Source of the DNA: Vicia villosa
Lineage: Eukaryota; Streptophyta; Magnoliopsida; Fabales; Fabaceae
Direction of reading: 5' to 3'
Assembly: GCF_029867415.1 (NCBI RefSeq)
Contig: NC_081185.1
Coordinates: 34,163,766 to 34,227,765, forward strand
Length of the DNA: 64,000 bases
Position numbers and translations under genes: made by a program. Positions 23,169 to 64,000 of this stretch are shown one piece after another. The stretch's first letter is position 1, and each line of letters begins with the position of its first letter. The notes under the pieces are model-generated. The model ran no database searches and had not been told where the DNA came from. It saw only the letters and a program-made list of their open reading frames with translations.

Positions 23169-26100
23169 AATTATCTTAAACCTGAAGATGTAGAGTGGTC
23201 TGTATGCCAGTCGGTATCTGAAGGTTGGAGATGATTGAACACAAGAATACCAAGAAATTTGCCCTATTTGAAGTAGGGACTTTTGTCGGAGATGGGCTTG
23301 TAGATGCCATCTGATAGTTGTTAGAGTGTAGATTGTTACGCAATTTCTGCTTTTGCTGTCTTCCCTCTTTTGAATGTTGAGGAACCGTCAAAGGTATCGA
23401 CTCAAATCTGTGTTGGGTTATTTAAGGAACCGTCAAAGGTATCGACTTAAATTCGAAGCATATTGTTGAGGCACCGTCAAAGGTATCGACTCAGATATGT
23501 GGATAGATTGTATAAGGAACCGTCAAAGGTATCGACTTAAATTCGAAGCATATTGTTGAGGCACCGTCAAAGGTATCGACTCAGATATGCGGATAGATTG
23601 TATAAGGAACCGTCAAAGGTGTCGACTTATATCTGAAGTATGTCGTTAAGGAACCGTCAAAGGTGTCGACTTAACTCTTGATGTGGGTTGTTAAGGAACC
23701 GTCAAAGGTATCGACTTAACTCTGCAGCATATCATTGAGGCACCGTCAAAGGTATCGACTCAGATATGTAGATAGATTGTATAAGGAACCGTCAAAGGTG
23801 TCGACTTATATCTGAAGTGTGTCGTTAAGGAACCGTCAAAGGTGTCGACTTAACTCTTGACATATTAAGGAACCGTCAAAGGTATCGACTTAATACTTGA
23901 AAATAGATTGTTAAGGAACCGTCAAAGGTGTCGACTTAACTCTTGTAAATGGAGATAGTGGTATCCTGAAAAGTAGAGGTTAGTTTTCTTTACGCCATGT
24001 CATGATGCATGCAATGTGTTTGTGTGACGGGATTCTCAAAATAAATGAGGACCTCGTATGTTATGTATGCGATTGTCGCGCTGTTTTATGTATTATGTAT
24101 GAACGTGTATGCAATTGTATGAATATGTTTATGACATGTGATATGTGAATATGATTCATGTTGTCTTGATTGAGAAAATAAATCTCTGTATCTTTGAAGA
24201 TGTTCAGCTGGGGATTTACGGTTTCTGCTTGGGGATGATCAGTAATTTGATGTACCCTGATTTAGAGATATAAATGGACCATGTTGAAGAGGAGCGACTT
24301 GTTGGAGAAATAATAGTGTCGAAGATGTAAACTCTGTTGGGGAGTCATGTCTTTGTCGGGACGAGAGTATTTGAAGGTATCTTCTTAGTGATTACTCTGT
24401 GGGGATATGATCTTGCGAAATCAGTTTTGTGGGAAGACGTGGATGTCTTGAATGTTGCCCCCAGTATTATAGTACCTACCACTCCTGGGTTTAATTAGGA
24501 CATGCCACTGAATGTTGATCAAGATGTCAAACTGGACTTGCATAGATTTGCCCCTGCTAGTAGGAACTTTGGAAAGATTCGCCTCGCGAGGGCTTTATGA
24601 GATGTACACTATGGGCGATATGCCCCCAGTAATCATAGGCTCAAGACAGTGTCCCATGTTGATTGGGGAGTAGCTTTAGATATACTTGGATGTATGCCCC
24701 TGATTGTTCGAGCATCCATGAGAGATTCTCGGAATCATGACTTGATTGCCCCAGATTGATCGGGAAATAGTATGAAACCCACTTGGGATATATGCCTTTG
24801 ACTGTTTGTCATTTGAGAGATTCTTGGAATCTTGACTTGATTGCCTCAGATTGATTGGGCAAAACATGTCATGCCCCTTGTATACGTAAGAGACATGGCT
24901 TCTTAGAGTGATTTTGTTTGTCGGGATAACTTTCAGTCATTAGCCATACCCTGTGCAAATTTATTCTGATGCTAACATTTGAAATTACGTAGCAGAATAT
25001 GTTTAATAATGAATTCATGAGATGCAATGCATACGTTTGTCTTGAGTTTTAAAAAAACATTAAAACAAGAGATGTAAAAGCGTGATATTTGTAAAACATG
25101 CTATTTTTTGTAGAAGCGAAATATCCACTCAGCATTTTAGTAGACCTTAAGGAGTCGGGATACCTTTTTGGTGAAAGTATGCTTTCGAACTAATCATGCT
25201 TCAGTTAGGACTTTCAAGGGTTGTAACATGGCTTGGTTCACGGTTTTAAGAAACAAAAGATAAAGGCTCAAAGTTTATTTATACCCATCCCCTTCTTCGT
25301 GATGTTCTTCATTCCTAAGCTCAGTTGGTTCGACTTATGCATTCAGGTTCCAAGAGACTTTTGGATTTGCGCCTTTGATAATGTTGATGGTTTGCAAACA
25401 AAGAGAACTTTTGAGATGGCAGTCACTTCTTCCTTTTGGTAGTCACAACTTTGAGTTGTTCAAGAATTTATTGACTTCTCTCTTTTTTTTTTTTTTGATA
25501 TCCCTAACTTTTGCATGAACTGTCTCTTTTGAGCTTACAGTCAGCGGGACGCCTTGATTTTTGCCTAAGTCTTCTTTTTGATTTTTGACTTAGCAGGCTT
25601 TTCTTTGTATATATGTTTTTTCATTTCCTTTCTTTTTGAAAAATACTGACTGCCTTGCTTAAGGATTGATGAACCATCATTGGCTTTTGATTGACATCTC
25701 CAACACTTATTTGATGTGCGCGGATGGACGCTTGTGATTGAAACCTTTGTTGAAAGGTGTACTGAATGATTCTCTTAAAATAGAATGCACAGCCAAATTA
25801 ACTGAGAATTACCCTGCCCCAGGTTATGACCAAGGGTTTTAATTAGTACAAGAAAGAAACTTCTACTCCTTAGGCTCAAAGGGGTTGACGAGGGATTATC
25901 ATCCTTATATCTCCACTGTTTAGGAATTGAAACAATGCCTGTACATCGTCAGCATAGTCTGTTCAAAAGCATACTATATGAGGTTGCGGTATCGTTCTCG
26001 TCATCCTCCCTTAAAAGGCTTACAGCTTAGCAGGAGTTGAGTATCACAAAACATATGCAGAGTAACGACATAATTTAAAAAGAGTGATAGCGAAATAATT

Positions 26101-26243
26101 TATTCAAGACAAACATATGCAATGCACTGATGATGATTATTAAAACAAATAATGTCTATCATAATTGGAGTGTTTAAACAAACAGAATAGAAATTGCAAA
26201 TGAAAGTAAATCTAATGACCTAAAAAGTTCATCCTTCTAGGTA
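23169..26243 (-). other. Non-coding 3' region of the young Ogre-like element
   Basis: No open frame longer than ~70 codons and no polymerase motif. The stretch 25850-26215 is homologous, on the opposite strand, to 35690-36060 of the outer element and to 38330-38530 of the short nested element. A GTACAGGCATTGTTTCAA-containing block is identical in all three. It holds the tandem array 23377-23940. Confidence 0.78.
23377..23940 (-). repeat. Tandem array A: 13 units with covarying inverted arms
   Basis: The core GAACCGTCAAAGGTATCGA (variants GCACC.., ..GTGTCGA) occurs 13 times about every 44 bp. Flanking arms pair within each unit but differ between units: TTGAG/CTCAA, ATTTAAG/CTTAAAT, TATAAG/CTTATA, GTTAAG/CTTAAC and TATTAAG/CTTAATA. 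An inner ACC/GGT pair is present in every core. Confidence 0.92.
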
Positions 26244-27431
26244 TTAATCAATCTTTTTGTGATTAGGCATAGGAGTAGTGATCACCACAGGAGTCTTGGG
26301 ATGATAGAATTCAATTTCACCAGCATCGATCATGTCTTGAATCTTGTTCTTCAATGGCCAACAATCATTCGTATCATGCCCAGGGCTATTGGAGTGATAT
26401 GCGCACCTCGCATTGGGCTTGTAGCTAGGGGCGGAAGTGTTAGGCTTTACAGGAGGATCCCTTAAAGTAATCAAGTTCTCTCTCAGCAAATGTTGTAATG
26501 CCTGAGCCAGTGACATGTTGATCTTTGTAAACTGACGTTTAGATGTATCTGACTTGCGTCTTTGTTGCGGAGCTAGTGTAGAGGTCAGAACTGTCCCCAT
26601 AGATTGGTTATGTTCATCGTGATCTTTCTGGTCGTACACAGTGTGAGGTTTCTCAGGAGAGTGGCAGTCAATGGTCTTGTCATCGATTAAGTCTTGGATC
26701 TTATTCTTCAGTGTCCAACAGTTATTAGTGTCATGTCCAGGACTATCAGAGTGATACGCACACCTTGCATTAGGATTATAACGAGAAGAGGAAGTACTAG
26801 GATTCCTCGGAGGATCCTTCAAAGTGATTAGCCCTTTCTTCAGCAATTGTTGCAACGCTTCGGCCAGAGTCATATTGATCTTTGCGAATTGGCGCTTAGG
26901 TGTATCTGACTTGTGTCTTTGTTGTTGAACTGGTGTTGAGATTAGAATTGTCCCCACAGATTGGTTGGGTTCATTGTGACCTTTCCGATTGTACCCAGTA
27001 TTGGCCATATGAGGTTTCTCAGGTGAATTGAAGTCAATGATTTTGCAATCAATGAGGTCTTGGATCATGTGCTTCAACGGTCCACAATCCTCTGTATCAT
27101 GACCAGGACTGTTTGAATGATAAGCACATCTTGCATGGTACTTGTACCCAGGAACGGGATTAGTAGGAAGTGAATATGGAGGCAATAGAGTTATCAAGTT
27201 CTGATTGAGCAGTTGTTGCAGAGCTTGAGACAGCGGCATATGTAATGGAGTAAATGACCGCTTAGGCTTGGATCTCTGATTATCTTGACCACCTTGATAC
27301 TTATATTGATTCTTCTCCTTCTCGATCAGAAGTGCCTTCAATTCTTCTTGCCCCTTGGCCAAGTGAAAGATTACTTTTTGGAACTGGTTATTCTGAGCCT
27401 GAAGATTTTTGACAGATTGTTCGAGATCCAT
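26244..27431 (-). CDS. Gag-derived ORF with triplicated zinc-binding module and no capsid domain, 395 aa
   Basis: An intact frame runs from ATG at 27431 to 26244. It opens MDLEQSVKNLQAQN, the same leader as the capsid-containing gag at 34299. The Retrotrans_gag-type capsid sequence of that gag is absent. Instead a ~120-residue unit is repeated three times (about residues 57-135, 179-256, 298-375). Each has a MxLxxALQxLL helix, a CAYHSxSPGHDTxxC zinc-type motif (Cys/His at 102/105/111/116, 224/227/233/238, 343/346/352/357) and an IQDxID segment. In Ogre-type gags this motif occurs once and probably binds nucleic acid. ORF1 lies 267 bp upstream. The frame is undamaged in a very young element, suggesting it is still useful, perhaps for RNA binding or for association with another element's Gag. 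That role is inference. Confidence 0.85.
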   Translation of the reverse strand: MDLEQSVKNLQAQNNQFQKVIFHLAKGQEELKALLIEKEKNQYKYQGGQDNQRSKPKRSFTPLHMPLSQALQQLLNQNLITLLPPYSLPTNPVPGYKYHARCAYHSNSPGHDTEDCGPLKHMIQDLIDCKIIDFNSPEKPHMANTGYNRKGHNEPNQSVGTILISTPVQQQRHKSDTPKRQFAKINMTLAEALQQLLKKGLITLKDPPRNPSTSSSRYNPNARCAYHSDSPGHDTNNCWTLKNKIQDLIDDKTIDCHSPEKPHTVYDQKDHDEHNQSMGTVLTSTLAPQQRRKSDTSKRQFTKINMSLAQALQHLLRENLITLRDPPVKPNTSAPSYKPNARCAYHSNSPGHDTNDCWPLKNKIQDMIDAGEIEFYHPKTPVVITTPMPNHKKID

Positions 27432-27698
27432 CTTTCTTACTGAAATAAACAGCGGAAAGATGAGGCATTTGTTTTTATGAAACCTGTGATGCGATGTTTA
27501 TGAATGCATGATTATGCATATGCAATGATCTCAAGGAGTTAAAGGCCTTTTAACACATTTAAAAGAAAAGAAAAGTAGAAGCAAAAATAAATAAATTATT
27601 TTAAATAAAAACCAGTGTATTATATGTTTTTTTTTTTACTATTATTTTTTGAAGTTACATTAAAGAAATACTAAATAATAAATAAAATATAAAAAGAA
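27432..27698 (-). other. Spacer between ORF1 and the gag-derived ORF
   Basis: Non-coding, AT-rich, with a T/A run near 27630. Nothing else is recognised. Confidence 0.6.
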
Positions 27699-29159
27699 TC
27701 ATTCTTCAAGTCGGCGCTTTCTCTTTAATCCTCTGATTTCCTCTTTATGGGCTTTGACCATCTCGTTCTTTTCTTGAATAAGCCTATCAATCTCTAGCTC
27801 CCATGATTGTATCTGATCAGGTGAGATGAAGTCTTCAATCTTCCACTTGCGAGAGAAATAGTCAAGCATACTATCTCGTTCTTTAGCATTAGCCACTAAT
27901 ACTGCTTTTTCCGCTTCAACCTTTTGTAGACGCTTCTCAAGATCAGCCTTTTCTTGTCTTAAATTAGCAACGGTGGTAGCAAGGTCTTCGTTTGGAGCGG
28001 GTACATAAGGCTCCAACTCTATGTGAACCTCGGGAGGAGTGATCCTCGGAACAACGGGTGTGTCAGATGGATGTGGTATGCCAAACTCGACGACTCGGTC
28101 ATAAATCCATTTAAAGTAAAGATCTGAAGGAGTATCGATCCTCATCCCCAATTCTCTTGCACCCACCTTTTTTACTTCATACCAAGCTTTAATGAAGCGA
28201 TTCTTCTTTTCAGTTGTATCTGAACCATAGTCAAAATTTTCCGCACTAAGATATATGGAGCGAGGCTTATCTTTCAAAGCAAAACCAAACTGATGTCGAG
28301 CAAGTATAGGGTTATAGGTAATTCCTCCATGGATGCCAAGAAGAGGCACATTAGGGAACTCTCCACAGCGGTCATATAACTGAACTCCCTCGAATTTCTT
28401 TGGATACCAAATGATGTCGTCGTATGAAAGCTCCATAATCCTTTGAATCCAAGTCAAACCTTCTTCATTCTTTATTGAGGATCGGGGTAAGTGAGAAATA
28501 AACCACCTATGTAAGAGAGGGATGCACCCTAGAACACAACCTCGTCTCTTTGTTACTCTAGCGTTGATGGAATGCAATAAATCACCAAGTAGAGTAGGAA
28601 CAGGATTCTTGCTAAGGAAGATTTTGATAGCAGCCCTATCAACAACTTTGTCGCAGCGGTGAAAAAGAACTTGTCCATATATCAACAGGGTTAGAACACT
28701 TTCCAAGGCATCCATGCTTAAAGCTTTAGCAAAGATCTTAGCTTTCTCGATCAAGAAATCCACAGGTATCCCAGAGTAGTCTCTTTTGTTGATCCAAACT
28801 TTGTTAATTTCTGATCTTGGTAGGTGTAGAGCAGCAGCAATGTCTTCCAACTTAGGACCTCCTTCCTCACCAGTGTAAGGGATTTGATCAGGTATGGGCA
28901 TGTCCATTATGTAAGAGAATTCTTCCAATGTAGGTACCAGTTGAAAATCTCTATAAGTGAAGCAATGGAGAAGAGGATCATAAAATTGCATCATAGAGTT
29001 GAGGAGAGCTTCATCCACTTTGGTTCGCATTAAACTCATCAGTTTGTTGAGAGATTCAGAAAGAACAAGAGAACCAGTAATATCATCACATAAGAGTCTT
29101 AATGCAGTAGGTACTTTCTTGAAGTTGAGGAAGAAAGGTTTCCTGATTAGGATTCCCAT
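27699..29159 (-). CDS. Ogre-type ORF1 protein, 486 aa (plant mobile domain-like, DUF7745-type)
   Basis: An intact frame from ATG at 29159 to TGA at 27699-27701. Ogre elements are known for an extra ORF1 between the 5' LTR and gag, and this one is in that place and orientation, ~700 bp after the primer site. The first ~380 residues resemble the plant mobile domain-like DUF7745 type (FTYRDFQLVPTLEEFSYIMD, LLHRWFISHLPRSS, IHGGITYNPILARHQFGF). The last ~95 residues form a charged coiled coil (LRQEKADLEKRLQKVEAEKA), ending in basic RGLKRKRRLEE. The ORF1 function is unknown in the family. No stop or frameshift is seen. The start is the first ATG of the domain-bearing frame; upstream is leader sequence. 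Confidence 0.85.
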   Translation of the reverse strand: MGILIRKPFFLNFKKVPTALRLLCDDITGSLVLSESLNKLMSLMRTKVDEALLNSMMQFYDPLLHCFTYRDFQLVPTLEEFSYIMDMPIPDQIPYTGEEGGPKLEDIAAALHLPRSEINKVWINKRDYSGIPVDFLIEKAKIFAKALSMDALESVLTLLIYGQVLFHRCDKVVDRAAIKIFLSKNPVPTLLGDLLHSINARVTKRRGCVLGCIPLLHRWFISHLPRSSIKNEEGLTWIQRIMELSYDDIIWYPKKFEGVQLYDRCGEFPNVPLLGIHGGITYNPILARHQFGFALKDKPRSIYLSAENFDYGSDTTEKKNRFIKAWYEVKKVGARELGMRIDTPSDLYFKWIYDRVVEFGIPHPSDTPVVPRITPPEVHIELEPYVPAPNEDLATTVANLRQEKADLEKRLQKVEAEKAVLVANAKERDSMLDYFSRKWKIEDFISPDQIQSWELEIDRLIQEKNEMVKAHKEEIRGLKRKRRLEE

Positions 29160-29885
29160 TATTTAAATAACCTACAAAACAAATTATGGTTAAAAGACCT
29201 TTTTCTCCTTGAGATGAGTTAGCCATGTCATGAATGCATGTATGCATGATGCATCACAGAAAAACAAATCCATACAAGTCACACAATTTTTGGCTTAAGG
29301 CTTGCATGGAGTTTAGATCAGGTGTCCTTCCCAAGGGCATTTCTATGGATAAGGAGATTTCAGCAACAGGTTCTACAAGTTATCCAGAATTGTAAGCCCT
29401 TCTAAAGCTCCCTCGGACATGATGCATTTGCACCATGCAATGATACTTTGAGAAAGAACCTATCTGAATTGTAGCATCGGGTAGCGACTAGTCCTTAACA
29501 TTTGTCAAGGGTAGTCCCCCCACTACGTTCCTAAAGGCCAGGATGGGTTAAGGGTAACTAAAGGTCCTTGAGCTCCGGCGCACCCACAGACACATACATA
29601 GACCTCCCTCATTTGAGAAAGGTGTGCATATGCTACGGAGTCCTAACTCAAGCGTGAACTTCATATTGACTCATCTCCCACATATGTGAAAGAGGCCTCC
29701 ATGATTATGCCACTCCTAAACTTAGGTGTTCTTGAATCCGGGAATAGAATTCGTCCTTCAATTTTCCCAAAACGCCCCTGAAAAATAAAACAAACAAAAC
29801 AAACAATAGAAAACATTTAAGTGAATCCTAAACTTTTAAGGTAACCCCTCTTTTATCGGAAAGTCCCCAGCAGAGTCGCCAGTTC
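29160..29885 (-). other. 5' leader and primer-binding site of the young Ogre-like element
   Basis: Non-coding. On the minus strand the Arg-type primer site TGGCGACTCTGCTGGGGA occupies 29881-29864, four bases after the LTR end (29886). The rest is leader to ORF1 at 29159. Confidence 0.88.
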
Positions 29886-32800
29886 TGTAATACGGTGAAC
29901 TGACTTTTTATCGATCGAAATGTCGCGGTAAGCAAGAGTCGCCACCGACTTTTATTTTATCCAAACAAATTCGGAAAGGCAAAAAGAAACAGAAAAAACC
30001 TTTTTAAGGAAATCTAAGTTCGGGGGGTAATTTATGCGAAGGGAAGGTTTAAGGCACCCTTTGCATCCATGGTTTTCCATGGGCTCTTAATTGCTTTGCT
30101 TGCTCGTTTGTTTTTTTTAAAAAAGGTAGATGAAAGAAAAAAGTGGACTTTAGCTCGTAAATGAGCGTAGCCAGTTTTCGAAGAATTGTGAGAAAGAATA
30201 TTAAAGATGAGCATTGCAAGGCAATTAGGGGCAATTACCTTAAACTCAGATGATAGGTCTCTTTTTAGCCTTTCGGAATGAAAGGGTCTATCCTTGCCAT
30301 AAGAGGGCAGGAAGCCTTTCGTTTGGAGGTTGAAGGGTCGTCGAAGCATCCTTTGCCATGAGACTGTCCCATGCCATAAGAGGGCAGGTAGTCTAAGGCA
30401 AGGATCAGAATAAGCCTTATTCGTAGGCAGCCAGAAGATACCTCAGCCTTTTTCCGTAGGCAACTTCCGAGGGTCGAGGTCATATTTGTGTATCGAAGGC
30501 AGCATCATTTAGGGTCGTATGACCTTTAGTATTCGAGGCAGCATGGCTGAGGTATCTTCGAATCCGAGGGACGTGGCTTATTCTGCAAAAATACGAAAGC
30601 GACAGGCAACAGGCAACAGGCAACAGGCAACAGGCAACAGGGGGGTTACCCAAAAGGGTGCGTGTGTGCAACAATCACGTGGTTATATTCAGATATTTAT
30701 CTTTTAATTAGTTATTCTAGTTCAATTTAAGGCTTGCACTCCCTAAGATTACTAACCACGCAGTATATAATAACATAAAGCAATAAAGGGGGCGGGAAAT
30801 TGTAACCAGCGGATCCCTTATCAGGGTTGACACAAGTAATAAAAGGCATAAAATAATAAAAAAAAATAGGGCTCAGGGTCACCAATAACGTAGCTTTGGC
30901 AATCGACAACCCTGAAAAAGATGGTAAATAAAAGTTGGGTGAATGTATGGCTAATTCGAAGGTTGGCAGGGTTAACCAGAAAATAAAGAGTAAATAAATA
31001 AAATAAATAACAATTAATAATTAAATAAGCGAGGCTACTTAGCTTTGGTTCGATTTGATCTGATATGGTTGCTTGGCGCTTTTAGGGTTGACCCTGAAAG
31101 GCAAGGCAGAAAAGGGGGTGAATGCAAAACAAACCCTAATTTAAAATAAACCAAACAGAAAGTTAAATTAAATTAAGTAAAATACTTAACTTTGGGCTTT
31201 TGAATCAGGCGCGTATTCGGAGTGAACCATGTCGATAACCCTGAAAAGGGAAAAAATATTTTCAGTGTATTGGGATGTTCGTTAAAGAGTCTGATTAAGT
31301 ATAGATCAAAATAAGAGAACATAAACGATTTAATTAATTATTGGTCTTACGACCTAATTAATTAAATCAGGATGAAATAATTTAATCGAGAATAAAAATA
31401 TTTTTTGCGAAATTTTTGGAATTTTAATGAATTAAATATGAATTTTAAAAGATATATACATAAAATATTTAATTAACAAAAATAATATAAACCTAGTAAT
31501 CATTATAAATAAATAAATAAACAAAATAAATGGTAAATATAATATAAGTAAATGTATAATATTAAGAAAATATAATAAATATAAAAAAGGGTTTTAGAAA
31601 ATATATAGTTTTTTATAGAAATAAATAAAAAGAAAAGAAAAAAAGAAATAAAAAAATAAATACGTAAAACATATATATATAAAAAAATATAAATGAAAAA
31701 AGATTGTATAATAAAAAAAATTAGAAACTTAGCTGAATGATCCTGTGTGGCTCACCCAAGGAGGTCCATGGTGCGCCAGCTTGCCCAGGAGCGTTGGATC
31801 CAAAGATGGGATGATCGAACGGCTTGAGGAGCGAAGGCGCATGGAAAGCCATACGTCTTGATGTACCGGATCGCTGGATGTTTGAAATCCCTGCGCGCGC
31901 GTGTCCCACCAATGGGCAGAGGACACGTACTTCGTCTTCTTCAACTAATTTTCAGAACACGACTTTTCACACCGCTTGCCCAAGATGCGTTGTAAAATGC
32001 CTATCTTTTTATACCTGCATTTCAACGAATACAAGAAAAAAGCAACAAAAATTTGGCGCGATGCCACGAATCGATTCGTCTCTTCCATACGAATCCAATG
32101 ATACCTGTCTCATGGCCTAATTCGTGCTAAATCGAAAAGCCCTAATTTAAACCCTAAAAACTCGTTCATGGTGAACCATGGCTATTGCGTCCAGAAACCA
32201 AATTAAAACTCCAGAAACGTTAATAACATCATGACAAACATAACCATGCGTTTAAATCTGGTTAATGATGCTTCAATGATCAGATTCGACATAAAACTTA
32301 AATCGGCCAAAGAATGACTTACAGTGATTCGTTCTTGATGATTCGGAGCCCTGGCACGACTGGGAAAGCTTCCTTGATGGTCCTGGGATGTGTTGCAATC
32401 GACAAAACCTCTTGAATTTATCTCTAATTCAAAATTGGAATCTGAATTTTTATGACCTTTTGCACTCGGATTTTGGACTCTATGGCTGCCAAAAACGTCA
32501 CCCTAGGGATCTGCAATTGTTTGGTACTTATAGAGGATGAATTAGGGCAACTAAAATTGAATAAAATCTTTTTCAATCTTTGATTTGCATATTGAGAAAA
32601 TATGATTTGTTAAAGTTTCTAACTTTGGTCCAAAATCCAATTTTCCCAACCAATTAGCCTTAGCACGAATTTGCAATAATTGTAGGATATATTTGATGAT
32701 TAATGATGATTGGAACATAGGCATAAATCATATCTTTTGTATTTTTTTATTTTTCATAATTAATTCATGATTTTAAATGATTAAAATCACAAAATAATTA

Positions 32801-33704
32801 ATAAAAAATAATATAAAATATGAAAGTGTGATTTGGGGGGCGTGCATGGGCTTGTAATGGAGATTGAGTGAAGAAATCATAGGCCCATTTGGAAAATTTT
32901 GGATTTTGAACCTTTCCTTTTCACATTTTTTTCTCAAAAATAGTCCAACTTTGACAAGGTGTATTTCTCTCAATTCTTGAGGTATGGAAGTGTTTTTGGA
33001 CTTTTTGGAAACCTTAGAGAGTCCTCTAACCAATGTCTTTGGTCCTATATCAAAATAATTTTCCATTCTCATTTTATGACCTTTTGAAAAAAATGTCTTT
33101 TTGTTGACTTTTGAAAAGGACCTATAATGTATGAAGCCATATCTCTTAAACCATTGACCTATGGGCTCTGATTCTTGGACCATTGGATAGAGGAATGAAT
33201 TCTCTTCAAAATGAGCTTTGGTGGGAATTTTTCTGATGAAGTATGAATATTTGGTGAATTTTCAAAGTTTGATTGATTTTTTTCAGCTCATGCCCAAAAT
33301 AGTAACTTTTGACTTTTGACTTTTCTGATCTTTCCTTGTATCATCATGATCAACACTTGATCAAATGATGATTTTAGGGTTATGAGGATGTTGTTGACCA
33401 AATATCTTGAGTTTTGACTGTATATTGACTTGAAATGACTGTTTTGCCCTTGAGAGTCGACTGTTGACCTAATCAGGATTTGAGGGACTCAATTTGCTCT
33501 GTTTGACTTGAAACTTTACATGGAGATTCTTTGGGATGTTGGTGACCCTATGGAACCACCTTGAGTCATTGATTTAATGATTTTCCATTGAATTAGTCAA
33601 ACCCTAATTCAGAGCTTTTGTACTGGAGAGTGTGTTTTGGAGCTTTGTGTTTTGATTTGATTTTGTGTATGGAAAATAGCATGGGCAAATTTTGGGGTAT
33701 GACA
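29886..33704 (-). repeat. 5' LTR of the young Ogre-like element (3819 bp)
   Basis: Nearly identical to 19372-23155. It is 35 bp longer, which I can account for: two extra CAGGCAA heptamers (+14, five against three copies at 30602-30636), a 22-bp segment between two GACTGTT repeats near 33437-33466, +2 near 33661, and -3 from homopolymer runs. AGAGTCGCCA at 29935-29944 repeats half the primer site inside the LTR. Confidence 0.93.
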
Positions 33705-34298
33705 ACTTCACGCAAGCCTTTAAACCTAAAGACACTTGTGTGACTTGCTTGTGTGATCTACTAACCCTTCGATTTCCTTGCATTTGTAGGACTTACTCGT
33801 CCTTGTTACCTTATGCTTTACCTAATGCATTACATTCGCATGACATCATGACATCATAACATATCATATTAACTAACCCTTTCAAGGATCTTAGGGATTT
33901 AGGACGCACAATTTTAGGTGATCTTATCAAGGACTGAATTCCTATCACGGGGCAAGAGGATTTATTTTCCTCTAGCCACACGTCTTCCAATTCAGAGACA
34001 CATTACCTATCAAGGGGAAAGAGGACTTATTTTCCTCTAGCCATATGCTTTCAACTTCAGAAGTATAAGTATCCCGAATCAGAGGCAATGACCCACTCGA
34101 TATGGTGAGCTTGATTCTCAAAGAAGGACGTTCCAAGACGAAAGTCAGAGTTCTTCAGACAAGGATGCGACACAATCTAATGTTGCTAACTAAATTCCTT
34201 AAAGATCCTTGAAAACATTGCATTTGCATTCATAACATCGCATAACAGGTTTCCTACCACGGGTTTCTCATATTCACTCGTTGTTTATTTCAGCATAG
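33705..34298 (+). other. Leader of the outer element, right of the insertion
   Basis: Non-coding. It begins with the duplicated ACTTC and contains a near-duplicate pair (ACCTATCAAGGGGAAAGAGG near 34011 and CTATCACGGGGCAAGAGG near 33945), each followed by TTATTTTCCTCTAGCCA. No ORF1 frame is present, unlike the minus-strand element. Confidence 0.65.
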
Positions 34299-35684
34299 AT
34301 GGATCTCGAACAATCAGTCAAAGACCTTCAAGCCCAAAATGCTGAGTTCTAAGCCCTGATTCTGAACTTAGCCAAGGGGCAAGACGAGCTAAAAACCCTC
34401 TTGACCAAGAAAGAGAAAAAGCCTAGAAGATTTGTGGGTGTCCCTAACATGGGGAGAAGATTTCGAGGTCCACTTAAGAAAGCTGATGAAGTCAAGGTTT
34501 CTAAAGAGGACGACAATGAACAAGACGATGATGCTAGTGTCAAAACTGATGCAAAAAGCAACCACGATTCTGTCAAGCCCTCTGAGGAAGAAGAGGACTA
34601 CTACTATGAGGCCGAACATCCTGATGACAAATACAAGTTGCTGGAAGAACGTATGATAGCCATGGAAACTCAGAAGGTACCTGGGCTAGATTTTGAAGCA
34701 CTAGGACTCATCTCAGGGGTTGTCATTCCTCCGAAATTCAAGATTCTGACCTTTGCTAAGTATGATGGAGTCTCGTGTCCTAAACTGCACTTAAAGTCCT
34801 ATGTGAGGAAGATTCAGTCTCACACTATTGACAAGAAGCTTTGGATCCACTTCTTCCAAGAAAACTTAGGTGGAACCCAACTCGAGTGGTACTACCAACT
34901 GGAAGGTACCAACATTCATACCTGGGAAGATTTGGCAACTTCTTTCTACAAGCAATACCAATATAATGATGATCTAGCACCGACTCGCATGCAACTACAA
35001 AGCATGTCTATAGGACCGAAAGAAAGTTTTAAGGAATATGCTCAAAAATGGAGAGACCTGGCTGGAAGAGTGCAACCTCCTTTAGCTGACAGAGAGTTGG
35101 TCGACATGTTTATGAGTACACTGACTGGTCCTTTCTATAGTCATCTGCTGGGAAGCTCATCATCTGGTTTCACTGATTTGATACTAACTGGAGAACGCGT
35201 AGAAAGCGGAATCCGAAGTGGTAAGATTCAAGTGGCTACTTCATCTGGTGCTACAAAAAAGCCATATAATGGGAAGAAAGAAGTCAATGATGTGTATAAC
35301 CAGAAAAGTCGTAATGAACACAACCTATCAGTTGGGGAAGTTCCACAACAACGACACAAGCCAGATGCACCTAAGCGTCAATTCACCAAAATTAACATGT
35401 CATTAGATCAGGCGCTGCAATATCTGTTAAAAGTAGGAATGATTACTGTGAGGGATCCTCCTCAACACATCAACACTTCCTCTGCTAAGCACAACCCAAA
35501 CGTGCGATGTGCCTATCATTCCAATAGTCCCGGGCACGACACCAATAACTGTTGGGCACTAAAGATTAAGATCCAAGACATGATCGATGCTGGTGAAATC
35601 GAGTTTGACCCTCTTGCGACCCCTAACGTGATCATTGCTCCCATGCCTAATCACAACAAGATTGCTAATGTTGTGGATGGCTAG
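34299..35684 (+). pseudogene. gag: Gag of the outer Tat/Ogre-like element, one early stop
   Basis: The ATG at 34299 begins MDLEQSVKDLQAQNAEF, then TAA at 34350-34352, after which the same frame stays open to 35684 (an internal ATG at 34401 gives 427 residues). The capsid part (Retrotrans_gag type) is clear: PPKFKILTFAKYDGVSCPKL, HFFQENLGGTQLEWYYQLEG and KWRDLAGRVQPPLADRELVD. It is followed by one NMSLDQALQYLL helix and a single CAYHSNSPGHDTNNC zinc-type motif with IQDMIDAGEIEF. It would form the virus-like particle shell. No protease follows. A shortened protein from 34401 could still contain the whole capsid; whether it is made is unknown. Confidence 0.85.
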
Positions 35685-45093: not shown

Positions 45094-45103
45094 TCAAAAA
45101 TCC

Positions 45104-45292: not shown

Positions 45293-45606
45293 CCAAAAAT
45301 AGATGGCATCTACAAGCCAATCTCCAACAAATACTTCTCAATACATCGAGCTCAGATACAGACTAATGTACGACTTATTCTTACTTTCGTATTATCAAAT
45401 CCAGATGGCATCTTTAAGCCCATCCTCGATAAATTTAAGTCAACATCTGAATGGCATCTTTAAGCTCATCTCTGGCAAAAAGACCCTGCATCATCAACGA
45501 CAAATTTCTCGGTATTCTAGTGTTCAATCCTCTTCCACCTTCAGATTCCGATTGGCCTACAAACCACTCTACATCCTCAGGTTTAAGAAGATTGAACAGG
45601 GGCAAC

Positions 45607-54323: not shown

Positions 54324-54328
54324 GACCT

Positions 54329-54817
54329 TGTTGTGAAAACGATACCAATAACAAAGTATAATAGGGAATTAGAGAGGAGAAGAAGAATACAATAATTGGT
54401 TATAACTGTTATTCTTTTACTTTCTCTTAAAACAAGATTACAAGTTTACAAGAATAACAAATAACCTCTCTCACCCTAAATTAGGATTTGCAGCTTAGCA
54501 ATGATTAGAGACTAGTATGTTATTTATAATAAAACCTAATATACTAACTAATGGGCTTTTTCAGCAAGGCCCATTACACAAGCCAACTTAATAAACAAGC
54601 TAACTTAACAAATTAGGGTTTAAACACTAAAACCTAATTTAACATGCTAACAACCCTAGCATCTTCGACATCTGCATGCTAGACCCATCTTCGACTACAG
54701 CATGCACACTTCGACACCAGCATGTGAACAACCTTCGACTTCATGCTTAACTCTGTCGAACTGTCGAACCAAGAAGCTACCCTTCGACCATACTAGAGTT
54801 CGATCCAATATCTCACA
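54329..54817 (-). repeat. 3' LTR of the Tork-like element
   Basis: On the plus strand it reads TGTTGTGAAAACGATACC ... ATCCAATATCTCACA. An 8-bp duplication GTCGAACT near 54762, absent from the other LTR, explains the length difference. Confidence 0.92.
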
Positions 54818-54860
54818 AATCTCCACCTTGGATCTAGCTCTACTAAATCAAGGGAACAAA

Positions 54861-56261
54861 CTAGCTTTCTTCATGCAGCTTTATCAACTGCATACAGTGG
54901 AAAAACTTGCAACTCGGCAATGTCTTGGTGATCATATCAGCAGCACTGTCTTCAGTCGAAACCTTGAGCACTTGGACTTCTCCACGCTGGATTACTCCTC
55001 TGACGAAATGCAACCTCACATCAATGTGCTTAGTTCGCTCATGATAGGCTGAATTCTTCGACAAGTGTATTGCACTCTGACTATCACATTTAACAGTGAT
55101 ACCTCGACCTTGAAGTTTCAGCTCCTTCGCAAAAGCTTCAAGCCACAATGCTTCTTTCACAGCTTCAGTTAGGGTAATATACTCCGCTTCAGTGGTTGAT
55201 AGAGCAACAACATTCTGAAGTGTTGCTTTCCAACTAATTGCAGTGCCAAACATAGTGAAAACATATCCAAAAATAGATTTCCTGGAATCCATACAACCTG
55301 CATAATCAGAGTCGACATATCCTTCTATTACTGCTTTACTATCTTCACCCAAGGCTCCACCATAAATTAGGACTCTGTTTAGAGACCCATTTATGTACCT
55401 TAAAATCCACTTCAATGCTTGCCAGTGAGCCTTTCCAGGATTTGCCATGTACCTGCTTACAAGACTTACTGCATATGTTATGTCGGGTCTAGTACAAACC
55501 ATAGCATACATCAAAGAACCAACTATATTAGCATACAAAATGATATTCATATAGGCTCTTTCAACATCAGTACTAAGACACTGATCAATACTCAGCTTGA
55601 ATTGAGGGTTTGTTGGAGTCACAACTGGCTTTGAATTCGACATACCAATTTTTTTGATAATCTTTCGCAGATATTCCTCTTGAGATAAGCATAACTTTGA
55701 CTTCTTTCTATCTCTTTGAATGTCAATTCCAAGAATCCTGGAAGCAGCTCCCAGATCCTTCATATCGAACTCCTTATTGAGTTCAGCCTTCACCCTCGTC
55801 ACATCTTCAACAGTGTTGCTTGCTATGAGAATATCATCCACATAAAGCAACAAAATAACAAATGAATTACCAGGTCGAAATATGAAGTAAACGCAGTGGT
55901 CGAACTGACTTCTAATGAAACTTATGTGTGCCATAAACTTGTCGAATCTCCTATTCCACTGTCGAGGAGATTGTTTCAGCCTATACAAAGATCTTTTTAA
56001 CTTGAACACACAATCTTCCTCCCCATTTTCGACATACCCTTCAGGTTGCCTCATCAGGATCGTTTCATCTAGATCACCATACAAGAAGGCAGTCTTCACA
56101 TCTATCTGTTCCAGTTTAAGATCGAACTGTGCCACCATGGCAAGCAACATTCGAATGGACCTATGCTTCACAACAGGAGAAAACACATCATTGAAGTCGA
56201 CACCTTTTTTCTGAGTGATACCCCTTGCAACTAACCTTGCCTTGTATCTGTTCGACGTCAC
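54861..56261 (-). CDS. Reverse transcriptase-RNase H frame of the Tork-like element, 466 aa, uninterrupted
   Basis: The frame contains RYKARLVARGITQKKGVDFN, FSPVVKHRSIRMLLAM, QIDVKTAFLYGDLDETILM, the catalytic YVDDILIAS (about 55832-55843), then RNase H: GYVDSDYAGCMDSRK, LSTTEAEYITLTEAV, VKCDSQSAIHLSKN and the end KTLPSCKFFHCMQLIKL. All catalytic acidic residues I can identify are present. It copies element RNA to DNA and degrades the RNA strand. It is the 3' part of a polyprotein; the preceding stop at 56292-56294 separates it, and the ATG at 56261 is just the first available Met, not a natural start. Expression would need readthrough. Confidence 0.85.
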   Translation of the reverse strand: MTSNRYKARLVARGITQKKGVDFNDVFSPVVKHRSIRMLLAMVAQFDLKLEQIDVKTAFLYGDLDETILMRQPEGYVENGEEDCVFKLKRSLYRLKQSPRQWNRRFDKFMAHISFIRSQFDHCVYFIFRPGNSFVILLLYVDDILIASNTVEDVTRVKAELNKEFDMKDLGAASRILGIDIQRDRKKSKLCLSQEEYLRKIIKKIGMSNSKPVVTPTNPQFKLSIDQCLSTDVERAYMNIILYANIVGSLMYAMVCTRPDITYAVSLVSRYMANPGKAHWQALKWILRYINGSLNRVLIYGGALGEDSKAVIEGYVDSDYAGCMDSRKSIFGYVFTMFGTAISWKATLQNVVALSTTEAEYITLTEAVKEALWLEAFAKELKLQGRGITVKCDSQSAIHLSKNSAYHERTKHIDVRLHFVRGVIQRGEVQVLKVSTEDSAADMITKTLPSCKFFHCMQLIKLHEES

Positions 56262-56291
56262 TCCTTCAATTCCTTCCTTAACTTTGAAAAT

Positions 56292-56723
56292 CTATTTACA
56301 GTTGACTAACCTTGCCCCTACAGGTTTCTTGATCAGTTCCCAAGTATGATTATCATGAAGAGATTTCATCTCATCATCCATGGCCTTCAGCCATTCAGTC
56401 TTATTTCGACTCCTCATAACTTCCTTGTAGTCTCTAGGTTCTTCGTCTAGAACCTCACTTGCAGAGATTAAGGCATAAGCTATAAGATCTGCATATCCAA
56501 GTCTTTGAGGTGGCTTGATGGCTCTTCTCGACCTATCTCTTAACAATAGGTAGTCATCGACAGTTTCCTCATCCTCAGCATCTTCTGCTTCTTCTTCAAC
56601 TTCATCTGGGATATGCAATTCAGCATCAACATGCTCCACCTCAAAAGGAATCTCTACCTGTTCCAGCTCTTCGTCAGATGTTTCTGTACTTCGACCAACA
56701 TCATCAGTTTTCTTAAAAGCCAT
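56292..56723 (-). pseudogene. Integrase-RT linker of the Tork-like element
   Basis: An acidic linker (VDAELHIPDEVEEEAEDAED) followed by RRAIKPPQRLGYADLIAYAL and WLKAMDDEMKSLHDNHTWEL, the usual start of copia reverse transcriptase. It is bounded by in-frame stops at 56724-56726 and 56292-56294. Confidence 0.8.
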
Positions 56724-56786
56724 TTAAGCTTCATTGAAAACTACATCTCGACTGGTGATACACCTCCTGTGACCTGGATCTAGGCA

Positions 56787-57682
56787 TCATAGCCTATAAG
56801 CTTTGACTCCTTCAGGGTATCCCATGAACATGCATTTCAAAGCTCTAGGTTCGACCTTGTCTTGCCTAATATGAGCATAGGCTACGCAGCCAAATACTCT
56901 CAGTTTGTCGAGATCTGGTGGATGTCCCGACCAAACTTCTTCAGATGTCTTCATATCTAACGTTATCAAAGGACATCTGTTTATCAGATATGTTGCTGTC
57001 GAAACAGCCTCAGCCCAGAACACCTTCTTTAACCCAGCACTAGTCAACATACATCTGACTCTCTCCAAAATAGTTCGATTAAACCTTTTAGCCAAACCAT
57101 TTTGTTGTGGAGTACCTGTAGTAGTTTTGTGCCTTGCAATACCAGAGGCAACACAAAACTGTCGAATGCCTCATTGCAAAATTCAAGGCCATTGTCGGTT
57201 CTCAACCTCTTGACCTTTCTGCCAGTCTGATTTTCAACCAAAGTCTTCCAACTTTTGAAATTCTCAAAAGTTTCATCCTTAGTCTTCTGGATGAATACCC
57301 ATAATTTTTTGGAATAATCATCAACTATGGATAGAAAATACCTCGCCCCAGAATGTGATGCACACCTTGCAGGCCCCCAAAGATCAGCATGGATGTAGTC
57401 AAGGGATCCATGTGTTCTTTGTTTGCCTTTGTTGAACTTCACTCTGCAAGATTTTCCAAGTACACAGGGTTCACAAAACTCCAGCTTTTCGACTTTGTCT
57501 CCACCAAGCAGATTTTGTTTCCCTAATTCGACCAGACCCCTTTCACTGACATGGCCCAATCTCATGTGCCATATTTCTGTCTTCGACAATGGTTTCGTGG
57601 ATGCAACATTTGTCGAACCACTTACAACTTCAGCCTCAAGGGTATACAAGTCTTGTTTCTTCACGCCTCTCACGACTTCCTT
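56787..57682 (-). pseudogene. Integrase of the Tork-like element (frameshifted)
   Basis: Zinc region WHMRLGHVSERGLVELGKQN with CEPCVLGKS, then the catalytic core: HADLWGPAR, SIVDDYSKKLWVF and RTDNGLEFCNEAF. The frame shifts near 57160. The C-terminal part continues in the frame of 56787-57095 (NRTILERVRCMLTSAGLKKV, FGCVAYAHIRQDKVEPRALK), with a stop at 56787-56789. Confidence 0.85.
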
Positions 57683-58834
57683 CTAACCCTTCATGACTCT
57701 TAGGATACTTTTCTCTCCTTGGAAAACATATCCATTCTTGTCGAATTCACCAAGAGAAAGGAAATTTCTCTTCAAATCAGGGACATACCTGACTTCAGTC
57801 AACAACCTTATTGACTCATCATGGAGCTTGAATCTCACAGATCCAACACCTGCAATCTTGCAAGCCTTGTTGTTTCCCAGCAATACTGACCCACCATCTT
57901 GATCACATAATTCCTCGAACAAGTCTTTGTTTGGAGTCATGTGCCAAGAGCAACCTAAATCCAAAATCCACTCTCTTCTCGAGTCACTGCTTGAAACCAC
58001 AAGAACATCAGATGATTCAAAATCATCTTGAACAATGGCTGCATTTCCATTATCCTTACCTCCATGATCTTTCAGACATTCAGGGAACACCTTTCTTGTG
58101 TGACCCTCCTTCTTACAATGATAGCATCGAATGCCAGATGCTTCGCCACTGTAAGACTTCGACTGGCTTTTGCCCTTCTTGTCGAACTTACCATTCTTTC
58201 GCAAGAATTTTCCTTTAACGGCCAAACCTTCACCAATAGTCAAAGGTTTATGCTCCTTTCGTTCATTCAAGTCCTTAGAATACAAGGCTGATTGAACTTC
58301 TTCAAACGTCAGGGACTCCCTTCCATACAAGAGAGTTTCTTTGAAGTGAGCATGTGATCGAGGCAAAGCGCACAATAGTAACAGCGCTTGATCTTCATCA
58401 TCAATCTTTACATCGATATTTTCAATATCAAGAATTAGCTTGTTGAACATATCCAACTGCTTACCCAACACTTTGTCTTCAACCATCTTGAATTAATACA
58501 AAGCCTGCTTCAGGTAGAGTCGATTTACCAGCGATTTAGTCATATACAAACTTTCAAGTTTCGCCCATAACCCTGATGCCGTCGTCTCCTTTGATACCTG
58601 TCGTAGAACCTTATCACCAAGGCTCAACAGAATTGCGTTGTGTGCTTTCTCGATCATAGTTGTTTTCTCCGCTGCCGTTAATGCAGCATTCATGGATGCC
58701 TCCCCCTTCAACGCTTCCAAACAACCCTGCTGAACCAGTAGGGCTTTCATCTTCAAGCGCCACAGACCGAAATCATTCACTCCGATGAACTTTTCAATAT
58801 CATACTTTGTTGAAGGTATCTTCTCCACGCTCAC
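57683..58834 (-). pseudogene. gag: Gag-protease of the Tork-like element (two stops, lost key residues)
   Basis: The frame begins at a GTG (58834-58832) where the sister relic has ATG; the sequence is SVEKIPSTKYDIEKFIGVND, then LWRLKMKALLVQQGC. Stops lie at 58493-58495 and 57683-57685. The knuckle CYHCKKEGHTRKVF has Phe for its last zinc-binding Cys. The protease motif reads LDLGCSWHMT, with the catalytic DSG changed to DLG. Both functions should be lost even without the stops. Downstream RYVPDLKRNFLSLGEFDKNG is the usual protease-integrase junction. Confidence 0.86.
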
Positions 58835-58844
58835 CGCACCAATT

Positions 58845-59325
58845 TGTTGTGAAAAACGATACCAATAACAAAGTATAATAGGGAATTAGAGAGGAGAAGA
58901 AGAATACAAGAATTGGTTATAACTGCTATTCTTTTACTTTCTCTTAAAACAAGATTACAAGTTTACAAGAATAACAAATAACCTCTCTCACACTAAATTA
59001 GGATTTGCAGCTTAGCAATGATGAGAGACTAGTATGTTATTTATAATAAAACCTAATATACTAACTAATGGGCTTTTTCAGCAAGGCCCATTACACAAGC
59101 CAACTTAATAAACAAGCTAACTTAACAAATTAGGGTTTAAACACTAAAACCTAATTTAACATGCTAACAACCCTAGCATCTTCGACATCTGCATGCTAAC
59201 CCATCTTCGACTACAACTTGCACACTTCGACACCAGCATGTGAACAATCTTCAACTTCATGCTTAACTCTGTCGAACCAAGAAGCTACCCTTCGACCATA
59301 CTAGAGTTCGATCCAATATCTCACA
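58845..59325 (-). repeat. 5' LTR of the Tork-like element
   Basis: 481 bp, starting TGTTGTGAAAAACGATACC and ending ATCCAATATCTCACA on the plus strand; about 98% identical to 54329-54817 by eye. Confidence 0.92.
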
Positions 59326-59791
59326 GACCTCTTAACAACCAAACTTTATTCCTAATGATATCTGGTTCTCTAGATTATTTATTCCTACTTCTTTAGTGAA
59401 TAAACCTTTGAATTTTAAATTGATTCATATGGCTATTAGTTAATCATAGATAAAATTAAGCATGTAGTTATCAAATTGATATCAAGTGTTATCAATTGAA
59501 ATTGTTTTCTAATAGGTAACTGTAGAACATTTTACTATTGACCAGAGAGCAAAAAGCATTACGAATAGATAAAAATAAATCATAACAAAATAAAATATGA
59601 CTCATAAAAACTGCTTTTGTGTTTTTTTGTGTTTAAATAGAGTGGGAGGATGAGAAAAGGTTTTAAAAGCGAGCTCGATAATATATCGCATCTTAGGCCT
59701 ACATACCCCTTAAGTGCAATTGGGAAGTCAGGGCTTTTGTAGTTCCTCTTAAAAGGAAAATAAAGAGCCAAGTGGCAAAATCTTTTTGGGT

Positions 59792-60035
59792 GTTGAGCTT
59801 TAACAATACTCAACAGGGTTTTAAAATGTTAAGCTTTAACAATACTTAACAAGTTTTAAAAGGTGTCAAGCTTTAACAATACAAGGCTACGGTTTAATAA
59901 AAGAGGTTGGTTGAGCTTTAGCAATACAAAACAAAGGGTTGATTAAAAAGGGTTTGATTAAAAATGGTTGAGCTTTAACAATACAAAACCATTTTCAAAA
60001 CAAGTGGGGTGCAAAGCTATAACAATACTAAGCAC
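59792..60035. repeat. Tandem array D: six units with covarying arms
   Basis: Core CTTTAACAATA. Arms: GTTGAG/CTCAAC (59792-59814), GTTAAG/CTTAAC (59828-59850), AAAATGGTT/AACCATTTT around the unit near 59970, GTGC/GCAC (60009-60035). The unit near 59864 does not pair, and that near 59910 pairs only GTT/AAC. Confidence 0.8.
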
Positions 60036-60856
60036 AAAGTAAAAGAGTTTGGAAAAGAGATTGAGTACCTTGAAAATTTTAGTCAATACCATTCCCATTC
60101 CTTTTGATATTTAGTAAGAACTTAAGCAATCAATCATGAATACCTCAAGTGATGTGTGTGATAACATGTGTATCATAAGAGTAAACAAGTGAGCATAACA
60201 AAGATATCAATGTATAAGACTCAAATGTAAATAGGTTTAAGGACAAGAGAAAGTTTATACCTTTGGATCAATTCATATATGAATGAATATGATGGATGAA
60301 TAAGTATCTGATGTATGCAGGTTAGTAAACAAAATACATATGTACAAGGATAAAAATCAACAAGTATATGTATAAGTATAGATAAAGAGATCAAAGCAAA
60401 AAGTTATACCAACATGGTGAAGCTAAAGATCAAAAGAGTTTGAAATTAGGGTTTTGAAACACACCTAATCCTAATTGATTTTAAAATTGATTAAAAAACC
60501 AAACCCTAAAGGAAAGTTGGTTTAAGGGAACATAATATCATTAAGATGATTTTAACCTAGCCCTAATTAATTCACACAAATATATCAACAATTTATTTGG
60601 TGAAAAAAGTCAAAAGAAATGATTTGAAAAAGGGTTTTAAAACATATAAAAGACTTGTTTTTGATTTAATTTTAAAATGATCAAATAATAAATATTTTTG
60701 GATTTTTAAAATATATTCATAAAATAAACAAGTTAAATAAGAAGCATGAAAAAAAATCACTTAAAAATAAGTTGATTTTCTATCTTAATCAATTAATTAA
60801 ACTTGCAAAAGAAATAAAGGAAATTAGTGGTAAAAAAGAAGGGATTGCTGCCAATG

Positions 60857-60910
60857 GGGTTTGAACCCACGCCCTAACCTTTACAAGCTAAAACCTTAGC
60901 CACCGAGCCA
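60857..60910 (-). other. tRNA-like module 2
   Basis: On the minus strand, TGGCTCGGTGGC (60910-60899) is A-box-like and GGTTCAAACCC (60867-60857) is B-box-like. No complete cloverleaf can be drawn. Confidence 0.55.
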
Positions 60911-61012
60911 AGTGCTTGTGTGTGATCATAAGGGGCCTCCAGGAAATAATATATGAAGAGAAGTTCTAAGTGCTTAAAAAATGAAAATAATTCACAAAGT
61001 TGCAAAAGGGGT

Positions 61013-63148: not shown

Positions 63149-64000
63149 TCGTGATATCATGTCACCAGGAAAATGACGGAAAAAAGGGAAAGTTAAAATC
63201 CTGCGCGCGTACACAAAGAATCAGCGTCAGGCGACGCGAGCTATATAAAACATAGGGGTCCGACTATAAGACCCTTCCACTTGCGTTAGCCAGGTCTTAG
63301 ACACCACTCGATAACAAGATCGGGGATGGTTCAAAAGCAATGGCGTGTAATGCGCGCTAAGTGAACAAACTCGATGAAAAGTGGCGAGGGTCGATTACGA
63401 ACCCTCTGCGCTTACCTACCATGAGGACTTAACGGTGTTTCCTACGAGAGGTCTTATGGCACCGCGACACCCACCCTTACTTGCATAAATATAAACACAC
63501 ACAAGCATGGCCTCAAAGCAAGGACTTACAGCTAATATATGCAAAATGAATGTCTACCCTACTTCTCATGGAAAAAGATGGTGCGGAAAGAGAATAAAAG
63601 AGAAACAAGAAACAATACCAAACTGATCGTAATCCGTAAATAACAACTATAAACAGAAATGGCGAGATCCGCACGCAAGCTAGCAACAAGCAACATAAAG
63701 CATCAGAGATCCGACAAGAGGCATATCATCAATACAACATAATGACGACGCGAAAATAAACCGCGTGTCGCAATTGGTGTGTGTGGCAAAACCTACGAAC
63801 AAGAATCGCAAATAGGCATAGCAAACATGTAACAAGAATACACGTGAAGTGTGTTAACAGGAATCACAATAAGCATGCGAACAGGAATCGCAAATTGGCA
63901 TAGAAAATATGTAACATGAATACATGTGGAGTGTGTTAACATGAATCACAAATAAGCATGTGAACATGAATCACAAATAGGCATAGCAGACATGTAACAG
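63149..64000 (-). mobile_element. LTR fragment homologous to the LTR at 1-3105, inverted
   Basis: Minus-strand 63500-63200 aligns collinearly with plus-strand 2040-2300 (CGGTG.AATAAG/CGGTGCCATAAG, CCGTTAAGTCCT, GGTTCG.AATCGACCC, CATCGAGTT, TTATCGAGT, GTGTACGC.CGCA). It contains array E and runs off the window. No gene seen. Confidence 0.65.
63795..64000. repeat. Tandem array E: seven or more units with covarying arms
   Basis: Core AACA(A/G/T)GAAT. Arms: TGCG/CGCA, TGTG/CACA, ATATGT/ACATGT, ACATGT/ACACGT (one mismatch), and TGTG-TT/CACA twice. Units occur in sets of three with a higher-order period of ~86 bp. It continues past the window end. Confidence 0.82.

Follow-up and report, generated by a model that had tools for sequence, protein, structure and literature searches.

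Are the short tandem repeats in the 3' regions of plant retrotransposons ordinary repeats, or are they rows of RNA structures maintained by selection? This question is raised by a 64,000-nt stretch of Vicia villosa DNA (NC_081185.1, positions 34,163,766 to 34,227,765; the window), which harbors five short arrays, A to E, three of them (A, B, and C) in Ogre-like elements of the Ty3/gypsy type. Most arrays examined in the window and elsewhere in the genome were found to be rows of hairpins with a constant loop and with stems changing in matching pairs, a description that is well supported.

Hairpin arrays in the window

Units were counted directly from the letters of the window. Array A (23377-23940, minus strand, which is the sense of its element) consists of 13 stem-loops with the core CCGTCAAAGGTRTCGA, as read on the plus strand, and stems of the types TTAA, TTGA, ATAA, and GTTA. 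Array B (39828-40428, plus strand) comprises 16 stem-loops with the loop TACATTAR and stems including CATCAG/CTGATG, CGTCAG/CTGACG, and CTTTAG/CTAAAG. Array C (plus strand) had been described in the initial annotation as one array at 43589-45093; it was resolved here into two pieces, namely nine stem-loops at 43589-43890 with the loop ATTAGTCCCCTGGCA and stems TCAC/GTGA, TCAT/ATGA, and TAC/GTA, and four stem-loops at 44961-45099. The non-array insert of about 1.07 kb between them (43890-44960) is T-rich in one stretch and includes, at 44577-44619, a 21-bp sequence repeated perfectly in tandem. Array D (59792-60035, read on the plus strand, element strand not assigned) is an ordered series of six stem-loops around GCTTTAACAATAC. 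Array E (63795-64000, no strand given) is cut by the end of the window and holds seven short AACANGAAT units, the loops of which are flanked by the arms TGCG/CGCA, TGTG/CACA, and ATGT/ACAT. Compensatory changes on both arms, as had been reported initially, were seen in these arrays, including the stems of B and the change from TGCG/CGCA to TGTG/CACA in E.

Each left arm was joined both to the right arm of its own unit and to those of all other units, the products were folded, and 20,000 permutations were run; in this test units are treated as unrelated and kinship among them is ignored. Own arms paired better than cross arms in array A (13 units; P = 1.5e-4 on the plus and 5e-5 on the minus strand), array B (P = 1e-4 and 8.5e-4), and array D (P = 0.0023 and 0.0098). 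The difference was marginal in array C (P = 0.066 and 0.66), where a pair-by-pair count with a core picked by eye gave a Watson-Crick fraction at pair 3 of 0.92 for own and 0.51 for cross arms. For array E, a value of P = 0.29 was obtained on both strands with four units of the longer core, which are too few. The constant-core and complementary-arm design, previously ascribed to all five arrays, is hence supported individually for A, B, and D by this permutation.

Stem variants among copies of arrays B, D, and A

The pattern of unit 15 of array B, with up to three mismatches, gave 71 matches in the 2.03 Gb of genome scanned (control, 1). In the first 17 B loci, the number of units is 15-17 in 13 and 14 in two; of all loci fetched, 51 of 57 hold 15-17 units. 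The order of units was identical across three copies inspected and in an alignment of 52 distinct arrays, which was built from the 57 loci and the window after three arrays with fewer than 10 units were dropped and three identical ones accounted for. In this alignment 90 of 96 majority pairs were standard. Stem variants present in a single copy kept the pairing in 21 cases and broke it in 46; those shared by at least two copies kept it in 40 and broke it in 24 (P = 4.5e-4). For one-step changes the corresponding numbers were 15 and 38 (single-copy) and 34 and 23 (shared).

Array D behaved similarly. At least 42 matches were found, with 40 scored of 1,840 first-look candidates, and in 23 copies 27 of 28 majority pairs were standard; single-copy variants kept the pairing in seven and broke it in 25 cases, shared variants in seven and four (P = 0.022). 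With B and D pooled, shared variants kept pairing more often than single-copy variants (P = 6.8e-6). In 11 copies of array A, 51 of 55 majority pairs were standard. Hairpins had also been proposed as the substrate of amplification; since B arrays are stable and ordered and shared variants favor pairing, this proposal was unsupported as the main cause.

Furthermore, the changes in each alignment column of B were re-placed at random on the tree in 500 runs. The paired fraction was 0.919 as compared to 0.821±0.029 in this null, and a single run reached the observed value; the covariation score was reached in five runs and the number of double-change types in 25. The covariation suggested by the initial annotation thus survives a phylogeny-aware null in B, the array to which this result applies. 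Ten double substitutions fell on the same branch of the B tree, and the pair was kept in eight of them. Loop variants present in at least five copies of B amounted to 0.016 per site as compared to 0.136 in spacers (P = 0.016 against singletons), and a constraint on the loop sequence is moderately supported. Stems and spacers of B showed no difference in the depletion of shared variants (P = 0.39 and 0.88).

Arrays upstream of polypurine tract junctions

The pattern GGGGCANCTGTCRYACCCCAA, which covers the polypurine tract and the start of the long terminal repeat (LTR), occurred at 16,867 genome sites (8,472 on the plus and 8,395 on the minus strand; control, 0). The 3 kb upstream of 60 junctions were taken from the first 62 sites, with two B-array sites left out. 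A repeat array, defined as a 9-mer repeated at least four times, was found at 55 of these junctions, mostly 0.2-1.6 kb upstream, and the cores sorted by eye into about 20 families. Four of the other five loci (L027, L044, L057, and L078) carry three to five hairpins TTATCA..TGATAA or CTATCA..TGATAG, as does L031; L052 showed neither such hairpins nor a 9-mer array within its 3 kb.

Pairing was then scored by counting units that have a conserved loop of 6-24 nt and whose 4-bp stem is perfect and differs from the commonest one. Four fake rules (A-C/G-T, A-G/C-T, identity, and parallel Watson-Crick), which preserve ancestry and geometry, served as control in place of arrays outside Ogre-like elements. 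Family labels were assigned by hand, families 0 and 6 being merged and L052 set apart with the label 26; the cores, unlike those of the pair-by-pair count, were not picked by eye. Under Watson-Crick pairing a score of at least 2, that is, conserved-loop hairpins with varying stems, was obtained in 43 of the 60 junction loci. The fake rules gave 2, 2, 6, and 4 of 60. By family, Watson-Crick pairing outscored every fake rule in 18 of 25, tied in four, and was not best in three (P = 2.9e-8). It was also strictly best in 17 of 25 families when one loop mismatch was allowed (P = 2.7e-7), in 14 with a stem of 3 (P = 7.6e-5), and in nine with a stem of 5 (P = 0.047). Examples are CCT/AGG around ATTCAC with G-C or A-T as outer pair (L029), CAAC/GTTG and CGAC/GTCG around CTCAGT (L069), CTTACC/GGTAAG and CTTACT/AGTAAG (L045), and TACC/GGTA and CACC/GGTG (L085). 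A hairpin search in which 4-nt loops were permitted returned noise only.

Protein domains were found upstream of several of these arrays. RVT_3, Integrase_H2C2, and rve precede the array in L043 and L058, H2C2 and rve in L037, and rve in L078; L085 has a partial rve with a score below the cut-off. By tblastn, integrase was detected within the 3 kb of 10 of the 60 loci and gag-related fragments in five. With gag, RNase H, and integrase last, the host elements are best classified as LTR retrotransposons of the Ogre/Tat group of Ty3/gypsy, and the arrays correspond to the family-specific tandem repeats which lie in the 3' untranslated region of Tat/Ogre elements between the coding region and the 3' LTR.

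Position and exchange of arrays

Comparison of the window with itself revealed related backbone sequence at 24371-26011 (minus strand), 38370-39179 (plus), and 42078-43142 (plus). Arrays A, B, and C occupy homologous 3' positions in three related Ogre-like elements, 0.2-0.5 kb upstream of the polypurine tract, which stands directly before the 3' LTR at all three junctions. Self-comparison and the tract/LTR junctions thus confirm that these arrays lie between coding or backbone sequence and the polypurine tract. Because the sites are homologous, the arrays are not independent placements; the earlier statement that they reside in different retroelements was too strong, as the three host elements are related to one another.

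The array behaves as a cassette that can be swapped, and similar integrase regions can carry different arrays. L058, with the loop TAACAC, is identical at the DNA level to L043 (loop GGCA) by 92.7% over 1,773 bp and to L053 (loop GGCA) by 90.5% over 1,585 bp, in both cases through the integrase and beyond. Past that stretch and up to the junction, no BLAST match of more than 60 bp was found between L058 and L043 or L053 at an E-value of 1e-20. Within each of the pairs L030/L028 and L049/L081, the upstream sequence and the final 157-159 bp are common to both members, and the array between them is different.

Conversely, cores of the window arrays recurred elsewhere, and a single core can occur in different types of element. 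The core of A is also found in L037, in which integrase is present, and in L055 and L076, where short gag-region fragments of 22 and 27 residues at the edge of the sequence match the open reading frame (ORF) 26247-27497 of the A element and no integrase match was obtained within 3 kb. One C-type unit each occurs in the integrase-bearing L053 and in L039, L045, and L059.

Two or more loop types were seen in the 3' regions of L039, L045, L058, L059, L030, L046, and L083.

The acting strand

G.U and A.C pairs were compared as indicators of the strand on which pairing matters. Among one-step changes in B and D, with D read on the plus strand, the ratio of G.U to A.C was 20:28 in single-copy and 32:18 in shared variants (P = 0.042). 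Units with one imperfect pair in four contained G.U in 58 and A.C in 33 cases (pooled P = 0.011; families 8 vs 3), with B contributing nearly half of these units. The sense RNA is tentatively favored as the acting strand.

A candidate function and its rivals

A constrained loop, a stem constrained in pairs, and a free spacer, many times in a row, point to recognition of the loop by a protein that binds several stem-loops. As the loops are family-specific, this partner would change with the element, which makes Gag the obvious candidate and packaging the obvious task; we infer the protein reader, its identity with Gag, and its role in packaging. The arrays may accordingly be multivalent cis-acting RNA stem-loop modules, the loop of which is read by a protein, most likely Gag, for packaging; we hold this reading as quite possible, though tentatively. 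In detail, each array would line up between 3 and about 30 short stem-loops in the 3' untranslated region of an Ogre-like Ty3/gypsy element, all of them presenting one loop. Selection would act on the sequence of the loop and on base pairing in the stem and leave stem letters and spacers free, and one protein or assembly would read the loops of many stem-loops together. The reader would be the element's own Gag during particle assembly, with the array as multivalent packaging signal, and non-autonomous elements, packaged in trans, would use the array too. Several stem-loops which share a loop and have free stem letters were in fact observed, as expected of a packaging signal. If the arrays are selected RNA stem-loops, abundant elements gain a concrete function for them, either particle packaging or RNA export, it would be explained why non-autonomous elements keep a particular array, and satellites born from arrays would start as structured RNA.

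An extension of this reading appears somewhat unlikely. The loop could be a swappable identity code that is read by the element's own Gag and copied by non-autonomous elements, with template switching moving elements between packaging groups. If so, this code would show itself in the family-specific 3' repeats that have long been known.

Packaging and dimerisation had both been suggested as roles. Packaging stays a good candidate; self-kissing dimerisation is unsupported, as no 6-nt palindrome occurs in the 15 loop cores tested. Sites antisense to the B loop were likewise absent from the B element, with no sense-strand occurrence of AATGTA or TAATGTA (2.9 and 1.0 expected).

Several results weigh against selected, protein-read RNA hairpins. 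A generic scan for the maximum column covariation in all registers with wide flanks favored antiparallel pairing in only 23 of 64 arrays with two ties, and the Wilcoxon test pointed in the wrong direction (P = 0.09); we think that misaligned far flanks and few units, which give large chance values, account for this failure. When pairing was scored against the fake rules, families 12, 15, 16, and 20 tied, and families 6, 19, and 26 (L052) were not best. The 60 sampled junctions all come from the initial 8 Mb of contig C1 and include near-copies of one another, for example L036/L037. Array A alone gave two kept and six broken pairs for single-copy and three and three for shared variants (P = 0.58), too few changes to judge. 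In the 52 copies of B, loop variants present in at least two copies were not depleted relative to singletons (P = 0.45), and depletion over the whole hairpin gave P = 0.29 (0.32 at five or more copies), where 17 copies had given 0.036. As to the strand, the G.U to A.C comparison in B alone gave P = 0.17, and by folding energy the sense strand was the more stable one in only 9 of 25 arrays, the Wilcoxon test leaning towards antisense (P = 0.075). Finally, the integrase-bearing relatives L058 and L043 or L053 differ in their loop, with integrase regions 97.7% identical in protein; near-identical integrases with different loops are the main difficulty for the idea that each Gag reads a single loop.

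Other explanations were weighed on the same evidence. Ogre RNA is reported to be partly spliced, and a location near the 3' end is shared by the constitutive transport element (CTE) of Mason-Pfizer monkey virus and the Rous sarcoma virus direct repeats. The arrays might be RNA export, stability, or translation elements which recruit host proteins and let unspliced Ogre RNA leave the nucleus. Their form is alike, repeated or structured cis-acting RNA being what passages of PMC7551171 describe for the CTE and the direct repeats, but if one unchanging host protein were the reader, the same loop would be expected in all families; a CTE-like conserved motif for such a factor was lacking, with about 20 core families, and searches of the window and of 10 loci gave no Rfam match that reached the gathering score. 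We regard this explanation as unlikely, and to a similar degree a process at the level of DNA or complementary DNA, in which one arm is corrected from the other, either through quasipalindrome repair or through template switching during reverse transcription, in the absence of selection on RNA. Such hairpin-templated correction is expected to keep the pair in same-branch double substitutions, as was mostly the case in B, and folding energies give no preference for the sense strand. It leaves unexplained, however, the constrained loop and the finding that one-step changes preserving the pair, mostly to G.U, are commoner among shared than among single-copy variants of B and D; the preference for G.U over A.C in these variants (P = 0.042) moreover favors one strand.

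Aid to reverse transcription or recombination seems less probable still. Pauses or homology islands upstream of the polypurine tract would help strand transfer and would explain the exchange of cassettes; the arrays adjoin this tract, they differ between conserved flanks in L030/L028 and L049/L081, and transfer between co-packaged copies has already been proposed for such repeats (Macas 2009, as quoted in a passage of PMC7004042). Pausing, however, needs stems and no conserved loop. That the arrays are ordinary tandem repeats with chance hairpins, the covariation reflecting shared ancestry of units, is very unlikely: it would account for the null result of the generic scan, and several families do consist of few unit types copied many times, but the fake rules keep ancestry and geometry and yet score far lower, and a single one of the 500 tree-aware runs for B attained the pairing that was observed.

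Host elements and other features of the window

The element of array A lies on the minus strand. Its polypurine tract and the start of its 3' LTR (TGTCATACCCC) are located at 23155-23170, the LTR running from 23155, and its backbone extends over 24371-29162 with an ORF for DUF7745 at 27702-29162 and a second ORF at 26247-27497. The latter resembles at the DNA level the region 34225-36069 around a gag ORF.

The element of array B (plus strand) has a 5' LTR at 36074-37257 and a 3' LTR at 40753-41936, about 99.7% identical to each other and flanked by the target-site duplication CACGT at 36069-36073 and 41937-41941; its polypurine tract is at 40738-40752. The primer binding site region (37258-37290) contains the sequence TGGCGACTCTGCTGGGGA, which resembles a primer binding site and which may be that for tRNA-Arg. 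A primer binding site for tRNA-Arg and an extra ORF1 before gag are marks of Ogre elements; the primer binding site-like sequence and the DUF7745 ORF of the window are candidates for these. Paired LTRs and a target-site duplication were established for the B element; the A and C elements are known from the 3' junction alone.

In the element of array C (plus strand), polypurine tract and LTR start are found at 45599-45620, the 3' LTR beginning at 45607. The gag ORF at 34353-35684 (plus strand; Retrotrans_gag, 4.2e-12) probably belongs to this element, which, judged from the order of backbone matches, was split at 36069 by the B element. The 3' region of the C element contains a further repeat at 45149-45290 (plus strand) with 49-bp units of the AGATCTAAATC...CGGTG kind. 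By eye these units look like the core of family 5, so that one 3' region may hold two array types. No integrase was found in the A, B, and C elements of the window.

Array D sits in a dispersed repeat of about 1.3 kb (59602-60911), which is also present at 1330-2662 of L088. Four ORFs near D and E gave no Pfam match. Additionally, the window contains a direct duplication of 3.8 kb with 98.6% identity (19369-23158 and 29883-33707), a Copia-type element on the minus strand at 54328-59331 with RVT_2, integrase, and gag domains and LTRs about 96% identical, and an ORF at 11764-12336 with a partial Myb DNA-binding domain.

Comparison with known systems

According to passages of PMC7004042, Tat-lineage elements of many plants carry tandem repeats in their 3' region, which in Lathyrus sativus have expanded into satellites of the primary constrictions. 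Corresponding passages of PMC11963269 treat the hypervariable 3' repeats of Tat, Ogre, and Retand elements as repeats or seeds of satellites with unknown function. Beyond this, the unit was identified here as a stem-loop in which the loop is conserved and the stem covaries, and the series of B and D proved to be ordered and stable between copies. The word 'hairpin' does not occur in the main texts of PMC11963269 and PMC7004042. The repeats as such are thus known, and we found no description of the hairpin rule in them within the literature searched; an earlier mention is possible, since Macas 2009 is known to us by quotation and PMC4032725 pairs 'Ogre elements' with 'stem-loop'. A scan of IMG/VR yielded no relatives of the A core or of DUF7745 (four stretches with the DUF7745 pattern, none confirmed).

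Retrotransposon RNA motifs tied to packaging are known from the kissing-loop dimerisation and packaging domain of Ty1, as described in parts of PMC5454406. The Ty1 motifs are at the 5' end, whereas the present arrays are 3' and lack a 6-nt palindrome in the loop cores tested. Structured or repeated cis-acting RNA is likewise represented by the CTE of Mason-Pfizer monkey virus, a long stem-loop with two internal loops, and by the direct repeats of Rous sarcoma virus, which flank src and bind NXF1 and DDX5 (both from sections of PMC7551171). These recruit host export factors; here, in contrast, the loop turns over between families. A further comparison is with the single-stranded RNA viruses MS2 and satellite tobacco necrosis virus (STNV), the dispersed packaging stem-loops of which have a shared loop motif read by the coat protein, as set out in sections of PMC3662417. 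In the present case the stem-loops stand together as an array in the 3' untranslated region of a retrotransposon, the loop differs by family, and the system is known from its sequence. Like those of MS2 and STNV (PMC3662417, same sections), however, the arrays combine many stem-loops, a common loop motif, and a varied primary sequence.

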